Shown in pieces: positions 77 to 2,478 of a stretch of 64,000 bases of DNA. The stretch is taken from assembly GCA_947598325.1 (NCBI GenBank), contig CANQFD010000005.1, positions 1 to 64,000 of the forward strand. Direction: 5' to 3'. Both the position numbers and the translations under genes were made by a program. A model generated the notes under the pieces. That model had not been told where the DNA came from. It saw only the letters and a program-made list of their open reading frames with translations, and made no database searches. How positions within the stretch are numbered: position 1 is the first letter of the stretch; every line of letters begins with the position of its first letter. The stretch comes from an uncultured Bacilli bacterium (GTDB taxonomy: Bacteria; Bacillota_I; Bacilli_A; RF39; UBA660).

Positions 77-106
77 AAAAGAACTCAAAATAAATTGAGT
101 TCTTTT
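77..106 (-). terminator. Rho-independent terminator after oapA-like gene
   Basis: A 12-bp perfect stem (77-88 with 95-106) has a 6-nt loop and a T-run on the minus-strand side. It lies about 65 nt downstream of the oapA-like stop codon. A second, shorter hairpin (111-118 with 124-131) sits between the two. Confidence 0.65.
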
Positions 107-171: not shown

Positions 172-720
172 TTAAATTTTTTTAAAACTAAATAAATGTA
201 TTAATTTTCCAACCATAAATGTTATCTTTTCAGAGTTTTCAATAGCTATACTTTTTCCAATTGCTTTTGTTGTTATTGTTAATGATGCTATTAAGCCAGT
301 TACGACTAAAATAACTATGGAACCATTTAAGTTAAACTCTTTAGATATCATATTTGAAACTAACATACCTGCTGAACCACTGACAACTCCGGCTACATCA
401 CCTACAACATCGTTACATATAGATGCAAGTTTATCTGAATTTTTTAAAAGTTTTATAGAATGTTTACTACCTTTTACTTTTTTAGAAGCCATTGAATGAA
501 ATGGTTTTTCTTTAGCAGCAGTAATAGCCACTCCTATCATATCAAAAATCATTCCTATTAGTATAAATACTATTATAAGAATAATTCCAAAAACTATATT
601 TATGTTTGGTATTATACTCTCTGATAAACTTGAAAAAATGATTGAAAGTATAAAAGATGTCAACATAACTATTAATATCCATTTTGTTCTATCATTTTTT
701 CTTTTTGTCTTTTTTTTCAT
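172..720 (-). CDS. oapA: OapA-like OLE RNA-associated membrane protein
   Basis: This 182-residue integral membrane protein has four predicted membrane helices (about 14-32, 41-66, 105-125 and 133-152). Between the second and third lies a conserved-looking polar stretch with the motifs AAKEKPFHSMASKKVKGSK and ICNDVVGD. The motif style resembles small DUF21-like proteins of Firmicutes. OapA of Bacillus halodurans is about 21 kDa with four helices and binds OLE RNA at the membrane; it is normally encoded just downstream of the ole RNA gene, as here. I chose the ATG at 720 because AGGAG precedes it by 5 nt. A longer reading to 783 would begin inside the structured RNA. The assignment rests on size, topology, motifs and neighbour, not on a database search. 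Confidence 0.8.
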   Translation of the reverse strand: MKKKTKRKNDRTKWILIVMLTSFILSIIFSSLSESIIPNINIVFGIILIIVFILIGMIFDMIGVAITAAKEKPFHSMASKKVKGSKHSIKLLKNSDKLASICNDVVGDVAGVVSGSAGMLVSNMISKEFNLNGSIVILVVTGLIASLTITTKAIGKSIAIENSEKITFMVGKLIHLFSFKKI

Positions 721-769
721 AAAATCTCCTAAAATAAAAAAATATGATGGTACTAATATAATAAACTTT

Positions 770-1319
770 GCGCCATAGGTCAAGTAGGTTTTCCCCTATT
801 CTAACCTTTCGTTACCAAAAGGCGGTTCCCCTTTAATGAATAGATATATCGTTTCCGAATATATGACTTGATTACCACTAAGTACACACTGCAATCTTAT
901 ATTAGTATACAGCCTAGGAGATTTCCTCACTGACATTTATCTATTATTAGCCATCTTTTGCAAATACAATTTCATATAGCAATTTCATATAAATAATTAT
1001 TGGCCACTAATATTTATATTATTCTATAATCCCAAGATATTCACTCAAGGCAAGCTACACTACTCACAGCTTTAGCCGCATAGTAGGTTCAAATCCTAAC
1101 TCGTACTAGATCAAGGGTCTAGCACAATATTAAGTCTCCACGTCATATGGGTTCTGCTTATATGCCGTTATAAGTTTCCCATATAACTACCTCCCAGCAT
1201 CCACCCCAGACTGGGCGTCCAAAGCAAACACCAGAAGTTTCACAGTTGTGCTCTTTAACGAATTTTTAGGCTCGTCTTCATAATAGATGTATCAACTAGG
1301 ATACTGCACCACTCATATA
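770..1319 (-). ncRNA. ole: OLE-like large structured non-coding RNA
   Basis: About 550-600 nt have no credible reading frame, and base composition is clearly richer in G and C than the flanks. On the minus strand it has many local hairpins, for example GUAUC/GAUAC near 1295, CCCAG/UGGG near 1210 and CUAGA/UCUAG near 1115. It also has G-rich single-stranded-looking blocks near its 3' end (about 790-835). A promoter with perfect 17-nt spacing ends at 1326, so the 5' end is near 1319. The 3' limit is approximate. OLE (ornate, large, extremophilic) RNAs are about 600 nt and lie upstream of oapA; in Bacillus halodurans they form a membrane RNP tied to Mg2+, alcohol and cold stress. tmRNA, RNase P and tRNA were considered and rejected. 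Confidence 0.78.
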
Positions 1320-1325
1320 CCAATA

Positions 1326-1354
1326 ATTTTATCAAAAAAACTAAGTTCAGTCAA
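1326..1354 (-). promoter_or_regulatory. Promoter of the OLE-like RNA
   Basis: A -35 box TTGACT (1349-1354), a 17-nt spacer and a -10 box TAAAAT (1326-1331) are seen on the minus strand, with TGA just before the -10. The predicted start is near 1319. Confidence 0.75.
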
Positions 1355-1446: not shown

Positions 1447-2478
1447 TTGAAAAAGGAGAAAATAAAAATTAATATGCTTTCAATGGCTGATTCTGTAGAT
1501 GGACAAGGTGTTGGGAGTGCCTATCTTGAACTTATAAAATTACTAAAAGAAGAAGGTAAAGATGATTTTGAGATTTTTATAAATAAGGGTACTAAATTTG
1601 ATATAATTCATGCTCATACTATCGAACCTAGAAATTATTTAAAATTAAAATTCAGCAAATGCCCAACAGTCGCATATGTTCATTTTTTACCTGATACATT
1701 AAATGGATCTATAAAATTACCTAAACCTATTTTTAAGATATTTAAAAAATATGTTATTAGTTTTTATAAAAGTGCAGATCATTTGGTTGTTGTTAATCCT
1801 ATATTTAAAGAAGACATGGTTAAAGTTGGACTTGATAAAAATAAAATAACATATATTCCAAATTTTGTTTCTAAAGAAAAATTTTTTAAAATGAAAAAGA
1901 ATGAAATTAAATCTTTGAGAAAAAAATATAATATTGGAGAAAATGAATTTGTAGTTCTTGGAGCTGGGCAAGTTCAAAATAGAAAAGGTGTTTTGGATTT
2001 TGTAAAAGTTGCAAAAGAATTACCAGATATTACATTTATATGGGCTGGAGGGTTCTCTTTTGGAGCAATTACAGATGGACATAATGAACTTAAGAAGATT
2101 ATGGAAAATCCTCCTAAGAATGTTAAATTTTTAGGTATTATACCTAGAGATGAAATGAATAACTTATTTAATTTATCTGACTTACTTTTTGTACCAGCAT
2201 ATAGTGAATTATTTCCAATGATAATACTTGAATCTGTAAATACTGAAACACCAATATTACTTAGAGATTTAAAGTTATATGAAGATATTTTATTTAAAAA
2301 ATATTTAAAAGGAAGTAATAATAAGGAATTTAAAAACTTAATATTAAAGTTAAGTGAAAATAATGATTTATACAAAGAACAAATAAAAAATGCTAAATAT
2401 ATAGCAAAATTTTATAGCAAAGAGAATGTATATAAAATGTGGAAAGAATTTTATACAAAAATATATAATGAAAGATAA
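1447..2478 (+). CDS. GT4 glycosyltransferase, glycolipid (LafB-like) type
   Basis: This 343-residue GT-B fold transferase begins with an IKINMLS...GQGVGSAYLEL segment. Its C-terminal donor half has GAGQVQNRKG, WAGG, and the family-4 E-x7-E region around FVPAYSELFPMIILES. The N-terminal signature and the length recall the LafB-type enzymes that add the second hexose to diacylglycerol glycolipids in Lactobacillales; I infer a membrane glycolipid or lipoteichoic-acid anchor role. The start is TTG, preceded by GGAG at 9 nt; an in-frame ATG at codon 10 is the alternative. It is one of only two plus-strand genes here, transcribed divergently from the OLE-like RNA. GT4 membership is firm; the substrate is not. 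Confidence 0.75.
   Translation: MKKEKIKINMLSMADSVDGQGVGSAYLELIKLLKEEGKDDFEIFINKGTKFDIIHAHTIEPRNYLKLKFSKCPTVAYVHFLPDTLNGSIKLPKPIFKIFKKYVISFYKSADHLVVVNPIFKEDMVKVGLDKNKITYIPNFVSKEKFFKMKKNEIKSLRKKYNIGENEFVVLGAGQVQNRKGVLDFVKVAKELPDITFIWAGGFSFGAITDGHNELKKIMENPPKNVKFLGIIPRDEMNNLFNLSDLLFVPAYSELFPMIILESVNTETPILLRDLKLYEDILFKKYLKGSNNKEFKNLILKLSENNDLYKEQIKNAKYIAKFYSKENVYKMWKEFYTKIYNER

Follow-up and report, generated by a model that had tools for sequence, protein, structure and literature searches.

An ole-oapA gene pair in the 0.94-Mb genome of an uncultured RF39 gut bacterium

INTRODUCTION

OLE is one of the largest RNAs of bacteria, and no biochemical function is known for it. Three proteins, OapA, OapB, and OapC, are essential in H. 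halodurans. There, OLE occurs abundantly and assembles with OapA into a particle (PMC11332333), while OapB binds P12.2 and P13 of the RNA (PMC9723947). Fernando and Breaker (2024; PMC11332333) described OLE together with OapA, largely without OapB and OapC, in the reduced-genome gut clades RF39 and TANB77, and found that RF39 OLE RNAs commonly lack P7 and P8 (variant 2), with variant 1 often lacking the OapB site. Both the system and its occurrence in gut bacteria that have reduced genomes and largely lack OapB and OapC are therefore known: A preliminary description of the DNA studied here had placed OLE outside its classic extremophile hosts, which is true but, as a novelty, had already been reported in that study.

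Here, we analyze an OLE-OapA locus at the start of a 64-kb stretch of DNA (hereafter, the window) that opens contig C5 of an uncultured RF39 bacterium, whose 0.94-Mb genome is assembled in 13 contigs and is 89% complete. As in H. halodurans and other Bacillaceae, the RNA has the full-length RF01071 fold, ole lies directly upstream of oapA, and the protein combines a DxxxD motif with a CNNM-like fold. The window RNA is AT-rich and scores 395 bits, however, whereas five Bacillaceae OLE RNAs score 485 to 522 bits, and, in contrast to the H. halodurans type of OLE ribonucleoprotein, neither OapB nor OapC was found in the window's genome. The locus thereby resembles the RF39 and TANB77 cases, i.e., reduced-genome uncultured gut bacteria in which OapA is kept and OapB and OapC are largely missing, but unlike the published variants 1 and 2, its RNA retains P7, P8, and the OapB site. 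With the CNNM Mg2+ transporters MpfA, CorC, and CorB, OapA shares a transmembrane fold and a presumed role in Mg2+ handling; it differs from them in lacking CBS and CorC domains, in carrying DxxxD, and in co-occurring with OLE.

RESULTS

A full-length OLE RNA lies directly upstream of oapA

A full-length OLE RNA is present on the minus strand of the window (1328 to 731; Table 1), where cmscan matched RF01071 untruncated over model positions 1 to 616 of 616, with 395.1 bits (E = 1.5e-112) against a gathering score of 50. No Rfam family other than RF01071 scored above threshold across the 64-kb window. This search is the covariance-model check that had been proposed along with the OLE assignment, and it confirmed the assignment over all 616 positions.

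Table 1. Features of the ole-oapA locus (window coordinates).
Feature	Position	Strand	Basis
OLE noncoding RNA (Rfam RF01071)	731..1328	minus	cmscan match; covariation over 34 relatives
oapA, encoding a helical membrane protein of 182 residues with DxxxD (D104, D108)	172..720	minus	PF01595, motif, AlphaFold2 model
Promoter-like site of ole, TTGACT-17-TAAAAT, TG preceding second hexamer	1326..1354	minus	consensus scan
Shine-Dalgarno-like AGGAG of oapA	723..731	minus	sequence; abuts OLE 3′ end
Hairpin 3′ of oapA, U-rich descending arm, likely terminator	77..106	minus	fold, -16.5 kcal/mol

The transcript, which probably starts near 1319, had been described as noncoding, G/C-richer than its surroundings, and rich in hairpins, and all three properties held up upon quantification. 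Between 784 and 1319, we found no frame of at least 60 amino acids, the sole overlap being the oapA frame, which enters the 3′ end of OLE. The G+C content was 35.8% in OLE as compared to 24.1% in the window, with only 0.08% of equal-length windows being equally rich. The predicted fold amounted to -163.1 kcal/mol versus -138.2 kcal/mol for shuffled sequences (z = -3.96; 0 of 100 shuffles equal), and covariation, which is treated below, points the same way.

The promoter of ole had been called excellent. A promoter-like site does occur, but its agreement with the consensus at 10 of 12 bases makes it good rather than excellent; shuffles of the same AT-rich stretch yield ~10 chance sites with nine or more matches, and the candidate site is by itself no evidence of function. 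The gene order came out as previously stated: oapA begins at 720 on the same strand, behind AGGAG and 10 bases past the end of the Rfam match at 731. No terminator was found between ole and oapA; a strong 12-bp hairpin at ~77 to 106, beyond oapA, is a likely terminator by its predicted fold (z = -4.77; 0 of 200 shuffles as good). The window start is the contig end (C5:1), and gene neighbors are visible on one side only. On that side, a glycosyltransferase related to IagA/BgsA (1447 to 2478, plus strand) is encoded divergently from ole, and a glycosyltransferase of this kind also adjoins OLE in two more genomes of the genus (L007 and L015).

OLE and OapA are retained or lost jointly across the family

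A survey of 291 genomes from the window's family detected OLE in 186 and OapA in 191. Both were present in 183 genomes and neither in 97, with 3 genomes carrying OLE only and 8 carrying OapA only; of the 194 genomes that carry at least one of the genes, 183 thus carry both. Among the OapA-only genomes, two rest on marginal matches (E about 6e-4); the others can be explained by missing contigs or by stricter filtering in the large RNA search. The OLE match exceeded 300 bits in 130 of the 186 genomes; the remaining RNAs include forms of ~495 nt that score about 230 to 250 bits and resemble the published variant 2.

The two genes are also commonly adjacent. Of 10 loci tested in named records, which included Lentibacillus halodurans and uncultured Bacilli, 9 had OLE directly upstream of OapA. 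Two family members (G002 and G010) carry OLE and OapA on separate contigs, and the linkage is therefore not universal. These data bear on whether OLE might be mainly a long 5′ leader or cis-regulatory element of oapA rather than a free RNA of a particle. Such a role would fit an OLE 3′ end that abuts the Shine-Dalgarno sequence of oapA with no terminator found between the two; it is at odds with the separate contigs in G010 and G002 and with H. halodurans, where OLE is an abundant RNA in a particle with OapA (PMC11332333). We accordingly regard a mere leader as improbable, and strongly so.

Several individual genomes are of separate interest. In one (G012, locus L017), OLE and OapA are 1.2 kb apart; unlinked partners occur naturally. 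Within the window's genus, OLE, OapA, and MpfA were not found in three of the seven other members (G005, G006, and G007; 64 to 90% complete), through either loss or incompleteness; these three count among the family genomes with neither OLE nor OapA. One family genome (G032) holds, besides a normal OLE-OapA pair and with only one OapA, a second OLE match (C3:70010-70394, L156; 385 nt, 154 bits, model positions 54 to 595). With a contig end only ~30 bases away and 4% contamination in the assembly, this second copy could stem from a contaminant or from faulty assembly, and we make no claim on it. Last, Spo0A is encoded in the 0.94-Mb source genome (G000:C2:88659-88970, 142 bits) and likewise in nearly all members of the family, and sporulation may thus persist in these gut bacteria despite their reduced genomes. 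Its presence fits the published link of OLE with sporulation genes, but within the family Spo0A fails to separate OLE carriers from noncarriers.

Covariation supports the OLE secondary structure

Upon mapping the Rfam structure via the cmscan alignment, we found both bases present in 152 of 159 model pairs, 145 of which were standard pairs. To count covariation, we aligned 34 OLE RNAs (that of the window, those of its relatives, and five from Bacillaceae) with MAFFT. The paired fraction of cells was 86.9%, as compared to 71.4% in shuffled alignments and ~42% when partners were slid by one to three columns, and the covariation score was 0.477, as compared to 0.196 (shuffled) and 0.095 to 0.139 (slid). 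Changes on both sides were seen in 109 of the 152 pairs. The observed covariation values exceeded 500 of 500 shuffles and every slid control. The alignment was independent of structure fitting, yet the placement of the structure relied on the window sequence, and kinship alone can lift related sequences above shuffles; most weight hence falls on the Rfam match, which is independent, and on the slid control. Covariation also held inside the family. Helices 11 and 12 (the inner part of the long P9 arm) are variable, poorly aligned, and 44 to 60% paired. P7 and P8 were retained in the window RNA. Judged from these alignments, the structure is much better supported by covariation than by folding energy.

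The same data speak to whether OLE could be a decayed, nonfunctional remnant in a shrinking genome that is retained only through the use of oapA. The reduced size of the genome (0.94 Mb), the lack of an OLE match in roughly one-third of family genomes, and the shortened RNAs of about 495 nt in some relatives would all fit decay. Decay is, however, hard to reconcile with a near-complete set of model pairs (152 of 159, 145 standard), with covariation within the family, and with the joint retention or loss of OLE and OapA, and we consider it very improbable.

The 182-residue protein groups with OapA

OapA of the window matched the CNNM domain PF01595 at 32.4 bits (cut-off, 28.4) and contained no CBS or CorC domains. 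Its DxxxD motif, the mark that sets OapA apart from CNNM domains (PMC11332333), reads C-N-D104-V-V-G-D108, and D104 and D108 are among the residues that were invariant in 17 of 17 aligned OapA proteins encoded beside OLE. An AlphaFold2 model (pLDDT 87.8) displayed a helical bundle, for which Foldseek returned MtCorB (7m1t/7m1u) and the CorC transmembrane domain (7cff) as the best PDB folds, each at probability 1.00 (7m1t: TMq 0.61, E = 3.3e-3). The best E-value of this fold search was only 2.3e-3, with the unrelated PDB entries listed all at probability 0.14 or less. These matches are in line with an earlier published OapA-CorB comparison. A PDB sequence search with an OapA profile, unlike the fold search, gave no match. 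Relatives in named records came mostly from gut and rumen assemblies labelled Bacilli or Erysipelotrichaceae, the best two at 83% and 68% identity; none were found in viral contigs. Altogether, the CNNM match, the DxxxD motif, the fold, and the co-occurrence with OLE support the grouping of the 182-residue protein with OapA, as the preliminary description had suggested. That it is instead a truncated fragment of an MpfA/CNNM transporter, as the above-cut-off Pfam match and CNNM-like fold might suggest, is improbable in the extreme, given a DxxxD that is absent from CNNM domains, the adjoining OLE, 17 homologues of similar length, and the lack of any CorC domain found in the genome.

A stop-codon reassignment in the OapA of G002 was considered and rejected, as the two TGA codons in its matched stretch lie outside an intact 173-residue frame; in the window genes, TGA is a stop and TGG encodes Trp.

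Fernando and Breaker reported an anticorrelation of OLE with MpfA (PMC11332333), which we could repeat within one class: The CorC_HlyC domain of MpfA was found in 0 of 37 family genomes, the window's own included, but 20 of the 23 relatives examined outside the family have it. Nearly all of the examined family genomes without OLE were also without MpfA, and MpfA is therefore no one-for-one replacement within the family. One family member without OLE (G022) encodes a 431-residue CNNM protein.

The OapB-site loop is conserved in a genome where OapB was not found

The rest of the genome was searched for OapB and OapC, a check raised in the preliminary description, and neither was found. OapB is a KOW protein, and the only KOW proteins in the source genome (89%-complete assembly) were uL24 and NusG. 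The oapB gene normally lies between map and infA, in the translation operon; in the source genome, these two genes overlap and no further gene fits between them. For OapC, a YbxF/L7Ae-type protein, no PF01248 match in the source genome passed the cut-off, the best reaching 12.9 bits within a 443-residue frame. Since the assembly is 89% complete and consists of 13 contigs, these searches fall short of proving absence. The OapB search covered the window's own genome, and the wider absence in RF39 is taken from PMC11332333.

A gene for bS21 is present in the source genome. The CCUCC anti-Shine-Dalgarno mimic occurred in 0 of 45 family OLE RNAs, and we had considered a lineage-specific loss of this bS21-related element. 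This idea was dropped, because P6 of the five Bacillaceae control RNAs lacks CCUCC too; CCUCC is therefore not a general mark of OLE.

The GGUAAC apical loop of P13 was nearly invariant among the family OLE RNAs. This adds a small new point: The loop of the OapB site is conserved here although OapB was not found in the source genome. Either OapB was missed, through incompleteness or divergence, or the P13 loop has another role. Such a role might be a contact with another protein or an RNA-RNA contact that is older and more general than OapB, in which case the minimal particle would consist of OLE, OapA, and a further factor; we offer this as a speculation that is more likely wrong than right.

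DISCUSSION

The best overall explanation of the locus is a true ole-oapA gene pair, arranged in tandem on one strand, and we hold this reading with near certainty. Transcription of ole would start from its own promoter near 1326 to 1354 and would probably read through into oapA, as suggested by the 10-base spacing and the lack of a terminator found between the genes. By analogy with the H. halodurans and Clostridium RNAs, OLE would be abundant, and it may dimerize and dock OapA at the membrane, both of which have been shown or modeled for those RNAs. From the same studies, the particle would act in the homeostasis of metal ions (Mg2+) and stress, where it may stand in for the CNNM-CBS-CorC Mg2+ exporter MpfA. 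The lineage studied here appears to have pared the particle to OLE and OapA, possibly together with bS21.

The locus provides a clear case of a 0.94-Mb genome in which, out of the three proteins essential in H. halodurans, only OapA was found. Minimal systems that occur naturally in this way help to distinguish the roles of OLE and OapA from the additions made by OapB and OapC, and the family supplies many close species with and without the OLE-OapA pair that are useful for comparison.
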